This document shows, in pieces, positions 4,614 through 27,346 of a DNA stretch of 47,209 nucleotides. The position numbers and the translations under genes are program-made. The DNA is from Eubacterium minutum ATCC 700079 (GTDB lineage: Bacteria > Bacillota > Clostridia > Peptostreptococcales > Anaerovoracaceae), in contig CP016202.1 in the NCBI GenBank assembly GCA_003433295.1, forward strand, positions 1,836,732 to 1,883,940, read 5' to 3'. The first letter of the stretch is position 1; the number at the start of each line of letters is the position of its first letter. The notes beneath the pieces were generated by a model that searched no databases, had not been told where the DNA came from, and saw nothing but the letters and a program-made list of their open reading frames with translations.

Positions 4614-5132
4614 CTAAACTTCAATTCCTTTCCTTGACTTCACACCCTGCGCATAGTAATGTTTGACTTCCTTCATTTCGGTGACAAGGTCAGCCATTTC
4701 TATAATATGATCCGGGGCATATCTTCCTGTTAAAACCAACTCCACGGAATCGGGTTTACGAGATATCAGTTCATTTATATCATTTTCTCCAATCATATCC
4801 AATGACAGTGGGATAAAAATTTCATCCAGTATTACGACATCAAATTCTTCTGACATAATAATCTCACCGGCTCTTTTCATGCCGTATTCAACACCTTGCA
4901 TATCCTGTTCATTCACAGGTCTGTTAAATATACATCCATTAGTACCGTAAAGTTCCCAAGTTATCCCTTCGATACTTTTCAATATATTTACTTCACTATA
5001 TTCCATCTGCTTTATAAACTGTCCTAAATATACTTTCAAACCGCCTCCTGCCGCCCTGATTGCAAGCCCGATTGCAGCAGTAGTCTTTCCTTTTCCGTTT
5101 CCCGTATAAACCTGCAAATAACCTTTTTTCAT
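4614..5132 (-). CDS. cobO: Cob(I)alamin adenosyltransferase, CobO/BtuR type
   Basis: Transfers the adenosyl group of ATP to reduced corrinoids, making coenzyme B12. The 172-residue product begins MKKGYLQVYTGNGKGKTTAA, with the P-loop GNGKGKT that this family uses in reverse orientation on ATP. It continues with GLAIRAAGGGLKVYLGQFIK, FDVVILDEI (Walker B) and LVLTGRYAPDHIIEMADLVTEMKEVKHYY, all family hallmarks. An in-frame GTG two codons upstream (5138) is part of the Shine-Dalgarno GAGGTG, so ATG at 5132 is chosen. No other cobalamin genes are in the window, so a salvage role is likely. Confidence 0.93.
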   Translation of the reverse strand: MKKGYLQVYTGNGKGKTTAAIGLAIRAAGGGLKVYLGQFIKQMEYSEVNILKSIEGITWELYGTNGCIFNRPVNEQDMQGVEYGMKRAGEIIMSEEFDVVILDEIFIPLSLDMIGENDINELISRKPDSVELVLTGRYAPDHIIEMADLVTEMKEVKHYYAQGVKSRKGIEV

Positions 5133-5260
5133 AATCACCTCATCACATACCGTGCACCTCGGATAATGAGTGGCTTGCGCCGTGTTTTATTCTTCCATTT
5201 TTGGAGTTGTGCCATTGCTGTTCGGATCAAAGAGCATCACCTCACAGGAATTTTAATGCT

Positions 5261-5289
5261 ACTATAATACTTTTATATCGAAAAAACAA
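5261..5289 (-). promoter_or_regulatory. Putative cobO promoter
   Basis: On the minus strand TTGTTT (5289-5284), 17-bp spacer and TATAGT (5266-5261). Transcription would start near 5254, giving a ~120-nt leader. The leader contains GCCACT but I could not fit a cobalamin riboswitch to it. Confidence 0.45.
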
Positions 5290-5452
5290 ATGACTTTTTG
5301 ATATAATTTCACCCCAAAACACATGATATATGTTATCCGGACATTTCACATCCATCGCAAACAAGTAGAAAATTCCAATCATACATTCCACAAAAGGCTT
5401 CTTAGAGTAAATTCCTTCAGAGATACAAACCGGAACTTACTTTGCAAATTAA

Positions 5453-5518
5453 CACAAAAACTTGACACCGTCCCACGGAGAAATAATTTTGGTAATATGT
5501 GTTTTTTTGTGGTAGTAT
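5453..5518 (+). promoter_or_regulatory. 19-bp core plus extended -10 (third copy)
   Basis: CACAAAAACTTGACACCGT (5453-5471) is identical to the core at the edge of repeat copy B and differs by one base from copy A. It is followed 38 bp later by TGG-TAGTAT (5510-5518), an extended -10. The same spacing (37-38 bp) is seen before thrS and gap. The remaining ~100 bp of the repeat is absent here. It would drive the short ORF at 5534 and the AI-2E/murB operon. The rest of 5290-5452 shows nothing clear. Confidence 0.5.
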
Positions 5519-5533
5519 ATATTCATAGGAGAG

Positions 5534-5680
5534 ATGATCGGGGCAGTTGCTTTTATTGCTTTTTACATTTTGCAAAGAAGACGGTTCGACCGTTGGTTTT
5601 GTCACTTCCCCTTATTTTGCAAAGGTGATGTTACGGGCAAGTGGAGTCGCGACTTTTTGCATCGGGAGGAATTTGCGTGA
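5534..5680 (+). CDS. 48-residue ORF translationally coupled to the AI-2E transporter
   Basis: ATG at 5534 follows AGGAGAG closely. The frame runs to TGA 5678-5680 and overlaps the GTG start of the next gene by four bases (GTGA). The peptide opens with a hydrophobic stretch (MIGAVAFIAFYIL) followed by QRRRFDRW, a pattern like a short membrane anchor, then an unremarkable polar C-terminus. No family recognised. Stop-start overlap suggests coupling, but the spacing of the ribosome site is shorter than ideal, so it may be only a leader peptide. Confidence 0.4.
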   Translation: MIGAVAFIAFYILQRRRFDRWFCHFPLFCKGDVTGKWSRDFLHREEFA

Positions 5681-20310: not shown

Positions 20311-21984
20311 ATGAAGATCATGTTTTGCGGAGCATCGTCGGGGGTTACGGGCTCATGCCATCTGCTCAAGACGGAAAAACACAATTTGCTGATGGACTGC
20401 GGACAGTTCCAAGGGGGCAAGGCACAGGAGATTTTAAATTACGAGCCTTTTCCTTTTGAACCTGCGGAAGTTGAGGCGATGATATTGTCGCATGCGCATA
20501 TAGATCACTGCGGAAGAATACCGTTGCTCGTGAAGAGAGGTTTCCGCGGGAAAATATACTGTACCGACGCTACGGCAGACCTGCTTGAGGTAATGCTGCT
20601 GGACAGCGCCCACATCCACGAGATGGATGCGGAGTGGCAGAGCAAGAGAAACATGCGTGCGGGGAAACCCGCCGTAGAACCGCTTTATACTACGGCCGAC
20701 GCGCAGGAATCACTTAAGTATGTAGCGCCTATCCTTTACGACCAGCAGATTCAGATCAACGAGGACATGAAAATAGTTTTCAACGATGCGGGACATATTT
20801 TGGGTTCCGCGATTACCGAGATCTGGGTCAGAGAAGGGGAAAAAGAAAGTAAAGTCGTTTTCTCGGGTGACCTGGGAATGGAGAACAGAGCAATTTTACG
20901 AGACCCGACCATCATTAAAAAGGCGGATTGCGTGATTATGGAGACTACGTACGGGAACAGGGTTCACGGGAAGAACTCGACCGGTATCAGCCAACTGATA
21001 GAGATCGTTCTGAAGACGATAAAAAGAGGCGGAACCGTTGTGATTCCATCGTTTGCGGTAGGCAGAACGCAGGAACTGATCTTTGAATTCAATCGCTTTT
21101 ATGAGAAATCGAGTCCGGATTACAAGAAAGAATTGGACGGTGTGGAAGTGATAGTGGACAGTCCGATGGCCACCAATGCCACCGAGGTGTTCAGAAAAAA
21201 TGCGCAGGTGTTCGATGAAGAAACCAAAGAATACATAATGCGCGGAGATAACCCGCTCGATTTCAAGAACCTCAGATTCACCAGAAGCACAGAGGAATCT
21301 CAGGCTCTGAATATGGACAAAAGGCCGAAAGTCATAATATCGGCGAGCGGAATGTGTGAAGCCGGAAGGATAAGGCACCACCTGAAACATAACCTTTGGG
21401 ATGCGAGAAATAGCATAGTGTTCGTGGGATACCAGGCGCAGGGAACGCTTGGCAGGAGTATTCTTGAGGGCAAAAAAGACGTGACACTTTTCGGTGAAGA
21501 AGTTCACATCAATGCGCAGATATATAATCTGGAAGGGTTTTCCGGACATGCGGATCGAAACGGACTTTTCAGCTGGGTTTCAGGGTTCAGACAGAAACCC
21601 GGGCAGATATTTCTCGTACATGGTGAGGAGGATTCAAAGAAAGATTTTGCAAAACTCCTTAATGATGAACTCGGATATGATCCGATAGTCGTTTTGGGCA
21701 ATTCGGAGTTCGAGATCGAGCAGGGAGACGTTTCGATAGTCAATCTGGAAGAAGCGACCACGTTAGGTGCGGATGACGAAGATGTTCAAAAGGTAAGGAA
21801 CAAGATTTCCGATATAGGCGATGAACTCCAGAGTATCCTGTACAATGCCCGACTCTCGATGGGCGATACGATAGCGAAGGAAAAACTTGTGCAGATAAAC
21901 AATGTAGTTCAGGAACTCGAAAAAGCAACGATAAACCTTGGAACCGCCGTTAACATAAGAGATGAGGAAATGCCTGCAGAGTAA
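20311..21984 (+). CDS. MBL-fold beta-CASP RNA metallo-hydrolase
   Basis: The 557-residue protein has a metallo-beta-lactamase core with HAHIDH near residue 61-66, DAGHILGS, SGDLG and METTYG. A beta-CASP insertion follows: SFAVGRTQEL, DSPMA, then ISASGMCEAGRIRHHL, GYQAQGTLGR, FSGHAD and LVHGEE. These are the features of bacterial and archaeal CPSF73/YSH1-like ribonucleases, related to but distinct from RNase J. A coiled, acidic C-terminal extension of about 70 residues (after SIVNLEEATT) follows. The start has AAGGAGG upstream. It probably processes or degrades RNA; the target is unknown. Confidence 0.9.
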   Translation: MKIMFCGASSGVTGSCHLLKTEKHNLLMDCGQFQGGKAQEILNYEPFPFEPAEVEAMILSHAHIDHCGRIPLLVKRGFRGKIYCTDATADLLEVMLLDSAHIHEMDAEWQSKRNMRAGKPAVEPLYTTADAQESLKYVAPILYDQQIQINEDMKIVFNDAGHILGSAITEIWVREGEKESKVVFSGDLGMENRAILRDPTIIKKADCVIMETTYGNRVHGKNSTGISQLIEIVLKTIKRGGTVVIPSFAVGRTQELIFEFNRFYEKSSPDYKKELDGVEVIVDSPMATNATEVFRKNAQVFDEETKEYIMRGDNPLDFKNLRFTRSTEESQALNMDKRPKVIISASGMCEAGRIRHHLKHNLWDARNSIVFVGYQAQGTLGRSILEGKKDVTLFGEEVHINAQIYNLEGFSGHADRNGLFSWVSGFRQKPGQIFLVHGEEDSKKDFAKLLNDELGYDPIVVLGNSEFEIEQGDVSIVNLEEATTLGADDEDVQKVRNKISDIGDELQSILYNARLSMGDTIAKEKLVQINNVVQELEKATINLGTAVNIRDEEMPAE

Positions 21985-23065: not shown

Positions 23066-23794
23066 ATGGTATCAGGGAGCAGAAAACACAGAAAAAGAAA
23101 AAGTAACGCGAAAAAGTCCATGTTTCTTCTGGTGGTGATGATATCACTGCTGTCTTACGGGATACATAATTTTGTTGTGGAAAAAAACGATGCGCCGACC
23201 TCAAGCGAGATTCCGGAATGGAGCGGAGAAGCTTATGTCAGTGTGAACGGCGGCAAACCGGATTTTAAAGAAAAAGAACTTTCGACGGCAAGATACGAAA
23301 GGCATGAGCCTCTGGATGAGCAGGGACGCGCCACGGGCGGTACGGCATGTCTGGATAAGGCGGGCATGGCAAAAGGACAGAGAGATTATATAGGAATGAT
23401 ACGTCCCACCGGCTGGCACTATTACAAATATAATTTTATCAAGGGAAGACTGCTCTATAACAGGTGTCATTTGATAGGGTGGCAGTTTACGGGCAGCACG
23501 GCGGACAGAAAAAACCTCGTGACCGGAACCAGATACATGAATGTAAAGGGTATGCTACCGTGGGAAAACAGACTTGCGGACTATCTGAGAAAGACGGAAA
23601 AGCATGTGATGTACAGAGTTACCCCTATATATAAAGGTAAAGAGGCGCTGTGCAGAGGCGTGAAAATGGAAGCGATGTCGGTGGAGGACAAGGGGAAGAG
23701 CCTTTCTTTCAACGTGTACTGCCATAACGTGCAGCCAGGCGTAAAGATAGATTATGCCACGGGCGAAAGCGAGGAAGAGGGGGATCGGAAATGA
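23066..23794 (+). CDS. Membrane-anchored DNA/RNA non-specific endonuclease (EndA-like)
   Basis: The 242-residue protein has a basic N-terminus (SRKHRKRKSNAKKS) and one membrane segment (MFLLVVMISLLSYGIHNFVV, about residues 19-38), so the rest faces outward. The nuclease core has YNRCHLIGWQFTG (residues 131-143), a variant of the DRGH motif with His135 as the likely general base. NLVTGTRYMNVKGMLPWEN supplies the metal-binding Asn. This is the pattern of EndA/NUC-type beta-beta-alpha-metal nucleases used in DNA uptake or scavenging. Its stop overlaps the next start (ATGA), so it is translationally coupled to a nitrogenase-like gene, an unexpected pairing. AAGGAG precedes the ATG. Confidence 0.85.
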   Translation: MVSGSRKHRKRKSNAKKSMFLLVVMISLLSYGIHNFVVEKNDAPTSSEIPEWSGEAYVSVNGGKPDFKEKELSTARYERHEPLDEQGRATGGTACLDKAGMAKGQRDYIGMIRPTGWHYYKYNFIKGRLLYNRCHLIGWQFTGSTADRKNLVTGTRYMNVKGMLPWENRLADYLRKTEKHVMYRVTPIYKGKEALCRGVKMEAMSVEDKGKSLSFNVYCHNVQPGVKIDYATGESEEEGDRK

Positions 23795-26049
23795 GCAAAA
23801 TTGCGATATACGGAAAGGGCGGCATAGGCAAGTCCACCATAAGCGCCAACCTGTCCGCCGCTATGGCTTCAAAGGGACATAAGGTACTGCAGATAGGCTG
23901 TGATCCGAAGCATGATTCCACGAAACTTTTGCTGCACGGGAAAAAGCTTACTACGGCACTCGATTATATGCGGGACGTGGGACCCACTGAACAGGACATA
24001 GGAGAAATCTTGGAAGAAGGTTATCTTGGGATAGGCTGTATTGAGGCAGGCGGACCCAGACCGGGAGTGGGCTGCGCCGGAAGAGGGATAATAAGCACGT
24101 TTGATATGCTTGAACGATTCAGACTGCCTCAGAAGTATGACACGGTAATATATGATGTCCTTGGAGACGTTGTTTGCGGAGGTTTTGCCGTACCCATAAG
24201 AAGAGAATATGCTGATTACATATTCATAGTGACCTCGGGCGAGTTCATGTCTTTGTATGCCGCAAACAACATACTTCGCGGTATACAAAACTACGATGGA
24301 GACATAGGCAGGGTAGCCGGGATTATATACAACAAGCGCAACATAGAAGGAGAGGATTCACGCGTTGAGAGATTTGCCGAAGCCGTAAATCTTCCCGTAA
24401 TTGCAAGAATACCCAGAGACGATGTCTTCACAAGGGCTGAAGCCGAGCGGATTACGGCCTTTGAGATGTGTGCGGGCGCTGAGGTGACGGCTGTCTTTAA
24501 AAATATAGCGAACAGCATAGATGGTGACCCGGAACTATATAAGGCGTTGCCCGTAACCGATGAAGAACTTGAGAGATGCATAGCGAATGCCGGCTCGACG
24601 AAAAAAAATGATAATGACGTGCATCGCAAGAACAAAAATGAAAAACATGGAGAGACGCCGGCAAAGCCTGTGAATGAACCGGAGAACATTGGAAATGAAC
24701 CGGAGAATGTTGGAAATGAGCCGGAGAATGTTGGAAATGAGCCGGTTTACTATTACTCAAAGAGTCTTAAAAACAGTGAACCCCTGCATGGCTGCGCTTT
24801 TAACGGAGCTTTATCGACATGCGTCCATGTAAGAGGCGCGATAATCCTTGCGCATGCTCCCAAAAGTTGCGCATACATATCATTTCAGACCATAAGTTCA
24901 AGCGGAAGACGAAGACTTTTTGAAAGAGGGTCATTGTTGCCCGTATCCCTGGCGCCTGACATAGAGTGCACCGATATGGGAGAAACGGAGATCGTGTTCG
25001 GGGGGATGGAGCGACTTGAGGAAAAGATAGAAGAACTGAAGGAAAAAAAGCCGGAAGCAATAGTTGTGATAAGCGGTTGCCCGGCAGGCATAACAGGAGA
25101 TGATATCAGTAAGGCGGAGAGCTTGTCCGATGAAAATACACGTGTGATTTCGCTTAAAACCGACGGCAACATGGCGGGAGATTATCTGCAGGGGATGATA
25201 ATGGCATACACGACGTTGGCGCGTGCATTTGTCAGAAAAGATATCGAGCCGGACAATAAGTATGTAAATATAATAGCGGAAAAGATTGTTTTGACCGGGA
25301 CGGAAGAAAACTTCAGAACCATGGAAAGATACCTTAAGTCGATGGGACTTCTCATAAACTGCAGATTTCTGTACGATACAGACACATATAAGCTGCGGAA
25401 TCTGAAGCGCGGCGGAATAAACATACCGGCATATGGCGATTACGCGGGAAGGATGCTCGGGGATTTCCTGCATAGAGAGTACGGGATGCACATGTTTGAA
25501 AAGCCTTTTCCCGTCGGATTTGACAGCACATGTGACTGGCTCAGAACGCTGGGCAGGTCTTTGGGGAAGGAAGCCCGGGTCGAGGAAATCATATCGGCGG
25601 AAAGAGAAAAGTATGTCAGGAAGATAAATGAGATTATGCCAGTTCTCAAAGGGAAAAAACTGATGGTGATAACATATAACCATGAATTGGATTGGATATT
25701 GAAGACCGCTGACGATGCAGGAATGGAAATCGTCAAGATAGGAATTCTTAACTTTTCGCAGGATGAGGGGTTCAGAACAAATTTGAGCCTTAAATGTCCT
25801 GTGGAAGAGAATTATGATAAAACTAAAAGGATGAGTGATATCGATAAGTATAAACCGGATGTTCTTCTTACCAACTATGCATCATCGGTTGCGGAGAAAG
25901 TCGCGGTTGCGGATACGATTCCGATGTGTCCGTACGTCGGGTTTGAGTCGGGTATCGAAATGCTTAAGAGATGGGCGGAACTGTTGAGACTTGACAGAAA
26001 GGGGGAATGGAACGATGATGCGGTCCTATTTGACAAATATTACTCCTGA
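23791..26049 (+). CDS. Nitrogenase-like fusion: NifH-type Fe protein joined to NifD-type subunit
   Basis: The 752-residue product carries two proteins that are normally separate. Residues 1-263 are a complete Fe protein: P-loop GKGGIGKST (8-16), CDPKHDST (37-44), Cys95 in GVGCAGRG with Arg98, and Cys129 in DVVCGGF, the two cysteines that bridge the [4Fe-4S] cluster of the dimer. A charged linker with NEPENxG heptads (295-318) follows. Residues 319-752 are a component-1 subunit with Cys335 (HGCAFNGA), Cys360 (APKSCAY) and Cys430 (SGCPAGITGDD), aligned by eye with the three P-cluster cysteines of NifD. The FeMo-cofactor Cys and His ligands are not visible, so nitrogen fixation is unlikely. Relatives reduce tetrapyrroles (DPOR, COR, CfbCD) or thioethers (Mar). 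The substrate here is unknown. Confidence 0.92.
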   Translation: MSKIAIYGKGGIGKSTISANLSAAMASKGHKVLQIGCDPKHDSTKLLLHGKKLTTALDYMRDVGPTEQDIGEILEEGYLGIGCIEAGGPRPGVGCAGRGIISTFDMLERFRLPQKYDTVIYDVLGDVVCGGFAVPIRREYADYIFIVTSGEFMSLYAANNILRGIQNYDGDIGRVAGIIYNKRNIEGEDSRVERFAEAVNLPVIARIPRDDVFTRAEAERITAFEMCAGAEVTAVFKNIANSIDGDPELYKALPVTDEELERCIANAGSTKKNDNDVHRKNKNEKHGETPAKPVNEPENIGNEPENVGNEPENVGNEPVYYYSKSLKNSEPLHGCAFNGALSTCVHVRGAIILAHAPKSCAYISFQTISSSGRRRLFERGSLLPVSLAPDIECTDMGETEIVFGGMERLEEKIEELKEKKPEAIVVISGCPAGITGDDISKAESLSDENTRVISLKTDGNMAGDYLQGMIMAYTTLARAFVRKDIEPDNKYVNIIAEKIVLTGTEENFRTMERYLKSMGLLINCRFLYDTDTYKLRNLKRGGINIPAYGDYAGRMLGDFLHREYGMHMFEKPFPVGFDSTCDWLRTLGRSLGKEARVEEIISAEREKYVRKINEIMPVLKGKKLMVITYNHELDWILKTADDAGMEIVKIGILNFSQDEGFRTNLSLKCPVEENYDKTKRMSDIDKYKPDVLLTNYASSVAEKVAVADTIPMCPYVGFESGIEMLKRWAELLRLDRKGEWNDDAVLFDKYYS
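24673..24744 (+). repeat. 21-bp tandem repeat coding the fusion linker
   Basis: Three full 21-bp units and a partial fourth encode NEPENIG, NEPENVG, NEPENVG and NEP. The repeats are nearly identical at the DNA level, so the linker length could vary by slippage without breaking frame. Confidence 0.9.
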
Positions 26050-27346
26050 CGGCATGAGCGGTCTTATCTTCGGCTTGGAGGGGATAACGGACGGCATTGT
26101 TTTACTGAACGGCCCTTCGGGTTGCAAATTCTACCATTCGGCGACATCGGACAATCAGTTTATCCGCCAACTTGAATTTGATCCGCTGAATTACCCTGAG
26201 AGGTGGTATTTCGGACAGCCAAGGGTGCCATGCACTTCGTTGGATAACGGAGACTATGTCTACGGGAGTGAAAGTAAGCTCAGAGAGGCGTTGACCTTTT
26301 TAAGGGAAAATGTGAAATTTGAGATATTGTTTGTCGTCAATTCCCCGGGAGCCGCCTTGATAGGAGACGATATAAGGCGAATAGCGGAAACGGAGATTGT
26401 AGACAGACCCGTCATAACTTATGAGACTCCGGGTTTTTCCGAAAATATATGTAAAGGATACGTAAAGGCCGGAAAGAAACTGGTCGGTCAGGTTGTAAAG
26501 GACGCGGGCGGAATCACGGAGAAGCGTACAAAGTCTTGTTTGGGGGACTCCGTGAAAAAACCGGTGGTGAACGTTATAGGATTAAATCTGTTCAGACGTC
26601 ACAGCTTCGGGGATGTATTGGAGATCAAAAAGATTTTAAATTTGATAGGAGCTGAAGCGGGATGTTTTTTGATGGCGGGATGCAGTTGTCGCGAGGTGGA
26701 AGAGATGGGGAAAGCGGATCTGAACCTCGTACTGTTTCCGGAATTCGGATTGCCAGTTGCGGAAGCGCTGAAAGAAAAATGCGGAACGGAATACTTCGTG
26801 CCGGAAACACCTCCTATAGGATTTAAGGCTACGGAGGAATTTGCGGTGAGCCTCGGTGAAATATTGTCGATATCGCCGGAGCGTCTGCTTGCCGAAAGCG
26901 AAATGATGCGCGCGAGAACTTATCCTTTTATTTCAAGACTTAATTCGATTACGGGAATGCCGAAAGGCCGACCGTTCGCCATTGAGGCACATAGGTCGGA
27001 AGCGATGGGATATGCAAGATTTCTGATAGAGTATTTTGCCATGACGGCGGACAGCGTTTCTGTCTTAGATAAAGAATGTGATTGCGGCGGCGGTGATCTG
27101 GCCGGAATGTTGCACAGTTATGGAATGGATGCCGCGCTTCGCCGCGATATAATGGATACGGAAGCCGATATAGTCATGGCCAACGGCAATACCATAGCGG
27201 CGCTGAAACTGAAAAGAAAAAAGTTCGGCGGCATAGATATAACCCTCCCCGGATTGGGCTATGTGGACATACTGCCGAAAACTCACCTCGGCGTAAAAGG
27301 AGCCGCGCTTCTTTCAGAACTTATAATAAACGGGCTGGTATACTGA
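26015..27346 (+). CDS. Nitrogenase component 1-like protein (NifK-like partner)
   Basis: The 443-residue product has the oxidoreductase nitrogenase component 1 fold. GIVLLNGPSGCKFYHS supplies Cys37, matching the middle P-cluster cysteine. The FVVNSPGAALIGDDI segment aligns with the third-cysteine motif but has Pro111 there, and the first cysteine position near TNITPDGMSG is also lost. A central Rossmann domain (PVVNVIGLNLFRRHSFGD, FLMAGCSCREVEEMGKADLNLVLFPEFG) and a C-terminal domain (GRPFAIEAHRSEAMGYARFL) complete it. It overlaps the fusion gene by 35 bases; ATG 26015 follows GGGGG, and a TTG at 25991 lacks a site. It presumably pairs with the NifD-type half of the fusion to form a heteromer with an asymmetric cluster site. 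Confidence 0.85.
   Translation: MMRSYLTNITPDGMSGLIFGLEGITDGIVLLNGPSGCKFYHSATSDNQFIRQLEFDPLNYPERWYFGQPRVPCTSLDNGDYVYGSESKLREALTFLRENVKFEILFVVNSPGAALIGDDIRRIAETEIVDRPVITYETPGFSENICKGYVKAGKKLVGQVVKDAGGITEKRTKSCLGDSVKKPVVNVIGLNLFRRHSFGDVLEIKKILNLIGAEAGCFLMAGCSCREVEEMGKADLNLVLFPEFGLPVAEALKEKCGTEYFVPETPPIGFKATEEFAVSLGEILSISPERLLAESEMMRARTYPFISRLNSITGMPKGRPFAIEAHRSEAMGYARFLIEYFAMTADSVSVLDKECDCGGGDLAGMLHSYGMDAALRRDIMDTEADIVMANGNTIAALKLKRKKFGGIDITLPGLGYVDILPKTHLGVKGAALLSELIINGLVY

Follow-up and report, generated by a model that had tools for sequence, protein, structure and literature searches.

In Eubacterium minutum ATCC 700079, a NifH-type ATPase and a NifD/NifE-type subunit are encoded as one fused chain (here called HD), which is followed by a NifK/NifN/BchB-type partner gene (K). 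The favoured reading, to which a probability of roughly one half is given, is that HD-K is an ATP-driven corrinoid reductase of very low potential that serves cobamide (vitamin B12) metabolism. The fusion lies in a stretch of 47,209 nucleotides, referred to below as the window (GenBank assembly GCA_003433295.1, contig 1, CP016202.1, positions 1836732-1883940), from a genome of 1.9 Mb in two contigs that is 96 % complete. H and D share one open frame, their cluster ligands are conserved, the fused proteins form a single clade, and in relatives the module recurs in gene clusters for B12 uptake, salvage, and assembly. Judging from this gene context, a role of HD-K in cobamide metabolism is probable. 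The reaction itself may well be the reduction of Co(II) to Co(I), although this is put forward with reserve. More tentatively still, HD-K could stand for a separate line within the nitrogenase superfamily, one that carries its Fe protein inside the catalytic chain and uses ATP to put electrons onto corrinoid cobalt for adenosylation. The functional hypothesis is new, and its genomic support is good but uneven.

The module is composed of the following elements.

23791..26049, plus strand: HD fusion ORF (open reading frame), NifH-type plus NifD/NifE-type, a single frame of 752 residues without interruption
23791..24588, plus strand: NifH-type reductase half, residues 1-266 (Pfam Fer4_NifH, residues 3-266, 1.5e-94)
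24589..24780, plus strand: low-complexity linker between the H and D halves, residues 267-330
24673..24745, plus strand: 21-bp tandem repeat of 3.5 copies (NEPENVG), in frame in the linker (Tandem Repeats Finder, 94 % matches)
24781..26049, plus strand: NifD/NifE-type half, residues 331-752, stop included (Pfam Oxidored_nitro, residues 335-732, 1.4e-72)
26015..27346, plus strand: NifK/NifN/BchB-type partner K, 443 residues, ATG at 26015 (Pfam Oxidored_nitro, 3.6e-44)

Both Pfam domains scored above the gathering threshold on the same HD chain, as did the domain of K, and the original prediction of an intact NifH-type reductase joined in frame to a NifD-type half was borne out by this one 752-residue frame. 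The protein had also been called single-chain, which is true of HD but not of the module: the start codon of K lies inside the 3' end of HD, the two ORFs overlap, and HD and K make up a two-chain nitrogenase-like module rather than one self-contained chain. With its NifH-type ATPase carrying two cluster cysteines and its Oxidored_nitro subunits, HD-K belongs to the nitrogenase superfamily. None of the NCBIfam matches listed for the window (25 of 33 for HD, all 12 for K) reached its cut-off. HD scored 317.6 bits against nifH (cut-off 394.4), 99.9 bits against nifE (cut-off 505.1), and 52.8 bits against BchN (cut-off 420), all Bch models listed falling short; the H half reached 312 bits against CfbC (cut-off 402), and the CfbD score was 36.5 bits (cut-off 268.4). 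The best match of the D half in the PDB was 9fmg_A (71 bits), an entry titled just "Nitrogenase", which we take to be the alpha chain of Mar.

The residues that would hold the metal clusters are strictly conserved. In an alignment of 68 fusions (A6, which leaves out 7 short or broken loci of the 80 and, at an identity threshold of 85 %, 6 of the remaining 73), the P-loop Lys9 and Gly13, Cys95, Arg98, and Cys129 of the H half were invariant, as were its Cys37 and Cys83 and, in the D half, Cys335, Cys360, and Cys430; the P-loop, the reductase residues, and the three D-half cysteines noticed in the window alone thus recur in 68/68 sequences. Alignment with Rhizobium NifD placed the three D-half cysteines at the alpha P-cluster positions Cys62, Cys88, and Cys154. 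K has a single such residue, Cys37, invariant in 63/63 K chains (alignment A7, with one of 64 rows, L087, removed by hand); there is no further Cys column at 90 %. It aligns with the beta Cys95 position of Rhizobium NifK, and the two other beta P-cluster positions are lost. While the alignments were computed, the residue numbers given to the NifD and NifK reference positions are those that we assume. Three cysteines in D plus one in K is the pattern of NifEN, as seen in an alignment with Rhizobium NifE and NifN, and on this sequence comparison the four match the way in which NifEN binds a [4Fe-4S] cluster.

Neither ligand of the FeMo-cofactor is present, as had been predicted. At the column of NifD Cys275 the window has Tyr, and none of the 68 fusions has Cys there (Tyr in 33, ten other residues elsewhere), and the stretch around His442 is a gap in five fusions aligned with NifD, so that both ligands are lost. 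A molybdenum, vanadium, or iron nitrogenase was rejected on the loss of these two equivalents. That HD-K is nevertheless a nitrogenase, or a scaffold for FeMo-cofactor assembly, would fit the family, the nitrogenase-like ATPase half, and the NifEN-like cysteines, but it is already contradicted and has hardly any probability left: the FeMo-cofactor ligands are absent, all nif equivalogs listed stayed below cut-off, and a PF00148 search of the host genome returned HD and K and no other nitrogenase component 1 gene. The statement that nif cofactor genes are missing stands for nifEN on the strength of this search; nifB was not searched for. Membership of NifEN itself was rejected on the nifE score (99.9/505.1) and because NifE clusters with NifD instead. 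HD-K has in common with NifEN the three E/D plus one N/K cluster cysteines, and differs from it in its attached Fe protein, its clade, the lack of a second component 1 pair, and the missed nifE cut-off.

The fusion is real and widespread. Genome contigs were scanned with the D-half alignment and the best 80 of 142 relatives were taken; the search recovered the same architecture as in the window, with H and D in one frame, in 75 of the 80 loci, and an assembly or frame error was rejected on this count. Hosts among these 80 are Clostridia of many families, Coriobacteriia, Spirochaetaceae, Treponema, Chloroflexi, and one metagenome-assembled genome (MAG) of the Propionibacteriaceae. Acetitomaculum ruminis DSM 5522, Anaerovirgula multivorans, and Sporobacter termitidis DSM 10068 are cultured isolates that carry the HD and K genes. 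Of the five exceptions, L117, L121, and L125 start where their contig starts, L076 is interrupted at the join by an in-frame stop, and in L143 the frame shifts within the linker; L116 was counted among the 75, yet its H part is broken into two frames. The linker, measured between the equivalents of H262 and P331 in the 68 fusions, is 38-119 residues long, with a median of 50. Short in-frame tandem repeats occur in such linkers, NEPENVG in the window and MTDRTG in L143 (about 5250-5640), where the frame changes within the linker, which may be a spot of slippage. A K ORF is present in 86/88 loci, the remaining two ending there, and in 85 of these 86 it starts between -200 and +15 bp from the HD stop.

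Genome samples gave a measure of how often the fusion occurs. In the sample of the host family it was found in 15/296 genomes, in one frame in 14 and split across two contigs in G051. A class-wide sample of Clostridia contained it in 5/391 genomes, three of them from the family of the window. It was present in 2/296 genomes of a Spirochaetota sample, the centre genome included, where the two fusions scored 495 and 508 bits and all other listed matches at most 142, a clean gap. The Chloroflexota sample held it in 1/400 genomes, namely the centre genome, plus one unfused relative of 219 bits. No relative of the fusion was found in a collection of viral contigs, and a viral source was rejected. 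Separate from these, frames with NifH- and component-1-type matches, open over up to 1146 residues, were seen in L065 (6100-8664, minus strand), L066, G145, G191, G078, and G200 and may be different fusions within the superfamily; G097, of the family sample, likewise has an unfused or differently fused frame.

A quick maximum-likelihood tree with a midpoint root was made of 91 D- and K-type chains, 23 of 114 having been removed for length or as duplicates or near-duplicates; its references included NifD, NifE, Mar-type, and Bch chains, CfbD and Isr sequences not being among them. All 29 fused D halves formed one branch with a support of 100 in the Shimodaira-Hasegawa-like approximate likelihood ratio test (SH-aLRT), and 15 K partners formed a separate single branch, also with SH-aLRT 100. 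Since all fused D halves share one branch, a single origin of the fusion would suffice within the sampled set. The closest relative seen is the unfused Chloroflexota H-D-K set L190 (genome G733; 219 bits), which adjoins the fused clade with a support of 99 (D) and 92 (K) and is useful for placing the fusion event. Outside the fused clade fall NifD and NifE, which group together, as well as the Mar-type clade and the Bch chains; the placement of BchN/BchY and BchB/BchZ is unsure because of their long branches. The phylogeny that had been proposed as a check hence left the fusion apart from the nitrogenase, dark-operative protochlorophyllide oxidoreductase (DPOR), chlorophyllide oxidoreductase (COR), and Mar-type references. 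The Mar clade was labelled through L063, the D chain of which matched 9fmg_A with 456 bits.

This position bears on a role as a sulfur-salvage reductase, a Mar- or Isr-like enzyme cutting C-S bonds, which is quite improbable. Group IV relatives of known function do include sulfur enzymes (PMC11423573); Mar and Isr are, like HD-K, Group IV H-D-K sets, Isr also belonging to anaerobic metabolism, and a cysteine-synthase-like gene lies near L089 and L140. The fusions, however, fall in another clade than the Mar-type references, Mar has a separate reductase, and Mar-type D keeps a Cys at the Cys275 column where 0/68 fusions have one. Isr shows the reverse cysteine pattern, with one in D and three in K against three and one in HD-K, and requires the radical S-adenosylmethionine (SAM) partner IsrB, according to the passages on this enzyme in PMC11423573; no radical SAM gene adjoins HD-K in the window, and Radical_SAM is absent among the 25 families listed for each sample of near ORFs.

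The gene neighbourhoods of some relatives point to corrinoids instead. At each of the seven Spirochaetota loci seen (L101, L104, L106, L109, L110, L111, L184), a B12-linked gene lies no more than 5 kb from the fusion. In L104, from a Spirochaetaceae MAG, the order is a PduO-type adenosyltransferase (PF01923, 8.5e-14), a BtuF-like protein (PF01497, 9e-26), a FecCD/BtuC-like permease (FecCD, 2.3e-93), an ATPase (by eye), HD, K, CobU (PF02283, 4.8e-40), and CbiR (NF041277, passing its cut-off with 124 against 105 bits), and then CobT and CobS, both found by phmmer. L106 has the same B12 gene set; L109 has adenosyltransferase, permease, CbiR, and CobS genes near the fusion; L101 has adenosyltransferase, BtuF, BtuC, and TonB genes on a contig that ends inside K; and L110 has BtuF and BtuC transporter genes only. 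In L111 a tetrapyrrole methylase gene lies upstream and CbiG and CobQ/CbiP genes lie downstream, with CobA further on. L184 (genome G521) was retrieved after the B12 idea had been formed and is therefore a fresh test; its order is TonB-CobS-CobT-CbiR-CobU-K-HD-ATPase-FecCD-substrate-binding protein-TonB, with a CobQ-like gene further on (assigned by Pfam, CbiR by phmmer to L104).

Similar neighbours occur outside the Spirochaetota. CobA adjoins the fusion in L076 (PF02572) and in L092 (phmmer), the latter from the complete genome of Ca. Formimonas. L073 has CbiX at 2.2 kb and a gene run read by eye as hem/cbi, and at L123 and L091 the fusion has genes for CobN and a chelatase-type ATPase beside it. 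ECF (energy-coupling factor) transporter genes were recognised by eye at L193 and L092. Near Firmicutes fusions, among them L053, L082, L093, L096, L108, L122, and L193, DUF4430 genes are found, some of them accompanied by genes for SLH and toroid-like proteins; the DUF4430 genes of L193 and L108 end about 20 bp before HD. The DUF4430 domain lies in the C-terminal part of transcobalamins (PMC4350170). The suggestion that the protein has a substrate of its own was strengthened by these neighbourhoods and is directed by them to corrinoids, from which we infer the role.

Two other readings can be set against this one. In the first, the substrate is another metal chelate, taken up through the FecCD-type transporter as in metal or haem acquisition, and the B12 genes are incidental. 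FecCD transporters carry haem and siderophores too, NCBIfam siderophore permeases also score against the L104 permease, and the genes that adjoin L091 and L123 are of the CobN chelatase type; but CobU, CbiR, CobT, CobS, CbiG, and the adenosyltransferases are cobamide-specific families and the best NCBIfam match of the L104 permease is BtuC, though below cut-off, which makes this a very unlikely explanation. The second holds that HD-K serves the reductive activation of corrinoid proteins, in the manner of RamA or RACo, or the upkeep of Co(I) in B12 enzymes rather than the reduction of free corrinoid. There are precedents for the reduction of corrinoid proteins at the expense of ATP, the B12-binding domain is matched 80 times in Ca. 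Formimonas (L092), and a DUF1638 gene follows the module in L084. Yet in L104 and L184 the module is flanked by genes for uptake, adenosylation, and the nucleotide loop, among which no corrinoid methyltransferase was recognised, and the genome of the window has three B12-domain matches only, so that this alternative seems unlikely as well.

Other genes beside the fusion were noted. A Dph6-like ATP pyrophosphatase (PF01902) gene lies 10-39 bp upstream of it in L052, L053, L095, L096, and L122, from at least two lineages, and perhaps encodes an amidation step. A gene for a cysteine-rich small protein of 98 residues (PF04071) stands immediately upstream in L083 ([Eubacterium] infirmum) and its relative L056. 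In the Chloroflexota loci L112 (12618-13667) and L114, a gene judged by eye to encode a MetE/UroD-like methyltransferase follows K; it has no NCBIfam match.

Within B12 metabolism, a tetrapyrrole ring reductase, for instance as a stand-in at the CbiJ step, would act on a double bond of the macrocycle and not on the cobalt. DPOR, COR, and CfbCD reduce tetrapyrrole rings (PMC7242693), the module adjoins cbi genes in L111 and L073, and CbiC was found in 23 of 28 fusion genomes, a count made in fusion genomes only, with four incomplete ones and G304 (a copy of G026) left out. The five genomes in which CbiC was not found are that of the window (96 % complete), G051 (97 %), G296, G297, and G309, and on their account the module seems to be retained by genomes that build no ring; the operons of L104 and L184, moreover, are salvage and remodelling sets, although G521, the genome of L184, does have CbiC. 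Because the module seems to be kept without CbiC and two unrelated kinds of adenosyltransferase adjoin it, reduction of the cobalt fits better, and an assembly enzyme acting on the ring is considered improbable.

Counts over all loci are less even than the Spirochaetota examples and weigh partly for and partly against a corrinoid reductase. After removal of 11 of the 88 loci at 80 % core identity, 77 nonredundant loci were left; for 36 of them a contig end leaves less than 5 kb of upstream or less than about 6.4 kb of downstream DNA. A cobamide enzyme was found within 5 kb in 8/77 (616 kb scanned) and beyond 5 kb in three (405 kb), all three among the eight; with DUF4430 added, these numbers became 15/77 and 4, in overlapping sets. 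With all 20 queries, 19/77 loci had a B12-linked gene within 5 kb and 58/77, the window included, had none, and all of these counts are partly circular because the queries were picked from the same loci. The same 20 queries gave 0/7 at unfused nitrogenase-like control loci (116 kb). As fresh tests among loci added later, L184 with its salvage operon and L193 with DUF4430 beside an ECF set agree, L191 has no B12-linked neighbour, and L192 is the contig of L103 and hence no additional fresh locus. DUF4430 was present in 7/263 nearest-neighbour ORFs and in 0/140 far ORFs (phmmer; one-sided p 0.049); the Pfam search of neighbours covered the 263 near ORFs and 140 of 240 far ORFs, the 25 commonest families being listed. 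In the window the neighbours are non-informative, with a beta-CASP protein, an EamA transporter, and a nuclease upstream and two genes downstream that match no family, and the cysteine-synthase-like gene at L089 and L140 (by eye; PALP 2/132) speaks against this reading.

Co-occurrence was followed through CobA (PF02572), which was found in 10/11 fusion genomes at least 90 % complete and in 18/40 same-family genomes free of nitrogenase-like genes (one-sided Fisher p 0.007), a comparison set that was picked by hand and from which kinship was not fully removed. Counted roughly by genus, the numbers were 5/5 and 13/35 (p 0.013); G098, one of the 35 non-g1 comparison genomes, belongs to a genus in which a fusion genome also occurs. 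G177 and 4/4 incomplete fusion genomes gave no CobA match, and the B12-binding domain PF02310 is uninformative as a co-occurrence test because it occurs in 53/55 genomes. The window has its own copy.

4614..5138, minus strand: CobA/CobO/BtuR corrinoid adenosyltransferase (Pfam PF02572, 9.3e-60)

This gene is the sole PF02572 match in the host genome and lies 18.7 kb from the fusion on the opposite strand; its product may be the functional partner of HD-K.

For a corrinoid reductase, the following mechanism can be proposed. Two H domains would dimerise around one [4Fe-4S] cluster held by Cys95 and Cys129, and this dimer, driven by ATP, would hand electrons on to a second [4Fe-4S] cluster, ligated in the manner of NifEN by three cysteines of D and one of K. 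The corrinoid would sit in the cavity that is the site of the FeMo-cofactor in nitrogenase and of protochlorophyllide in DPOR, where its cobalt would be reduced from Co(II) to Co(I), as needed by the PduO- and CobA-type adenosyltransferases found beside some relatives. Through the tether, each D2K2 core would have two H domains and thereby a single Fe-protein dimer, where up to two would otherwise be possible. The tether also makes the mechanism testable: the Fe protein of nitrogenase docks and leaves for each electron, whereas here it cannot leave far.

Among characterised enzymes, DPOR (BchLNB) and COR (BchXYZ) may serve as a model, being ATP-driven tetrapyrrole reductases that lack the FeMo-cofactor and take a large planar substrate into the cofactor cavity. 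They differ in their separate reductase subunit, the Bch cut-offs are missed by HD-K, and their reference chains stand on long separate branches; in the alignment, K has Cys where BchB has Asp, which is described as a ligand in PMC11423573. CfbCD is likewise of Group IV, has a tetrapyrrole substrate, and gives the H half a score of 312/402 bits (CfbC). The account of CfbD in PMC11423573 gives it no K partner, in contrast to the K gene that adjoins HD in 86/88 loci, and its cut-off is missed.

The few known jobs of nitrogenase-like enzymes are given as nitrogen fixation and roles in chlorophyll, F430, and sulfur salvage (PMC11423573). If the proposed function is correct, vitamin B12 metabolism would gain its first enzyme of the nitrogenase type, and many strict anaerobes would have in HD-K a reductant dedicated to corrinoid adenosylation. 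The tetrapyrrole-reducing side of the superfamily would then reach as far as B12, and a source of cob(I)alamin powered by ATP would be identified for anaerobes of gut and sediment. Gut bacteria compete for B12, and an enzyme of its uptake and activation would be of ecological interest.

At the outset the protein was considered possibly undescribed; for the fusion as such this was not supported. Dos Santos et al. mentioned fused nifH-nifE genes followed by nifN-like genes, with the data not shown and no function attached in that passage (Dos Santos et al. 2012; PMC3464626), and a "fused nifH/nifE" is mentioned for Ca. Methanomassiliicoccus intestinalis (PMC4153887). The fusions of 2012 have the same architecture as HD-K, one H plus E-like frame and then an N-like gene, with Firmicutes among the hosts, and may be of the same family; the tree of that paper leaves the fused sequences out (PMC3464626). 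The passages retrieved from openly licensed literature on nitrogenase-like proteins with B12 or NifH/NifD fusion assign the fused proteins no role. The architecture is thus already in print, and what is new here is the genomic tie to cobamide metabolism, which would assign a function to the fusion noted in 2012.

Two further genes of the window lie upstream of the module.

23066-23794: DNA/RNA non-specific endonuclease (PF13930, 4.7e-22), overlapping the HD start codon (ATGA)
20311-21984: beta-CASP metallo-hydrolase (415 bits against a Cas14 type VII CRISPR model, cut-off of 800 missed)

The beta-CASP protein is probably an ordinary RNase-like protein. The ATGA overlap of the endonuclease gene with HD possibly reflects translational coupling of genes of unrelated function, and a similar endonuclease gene precedes the fusion in the relative G015 (L050/L069).

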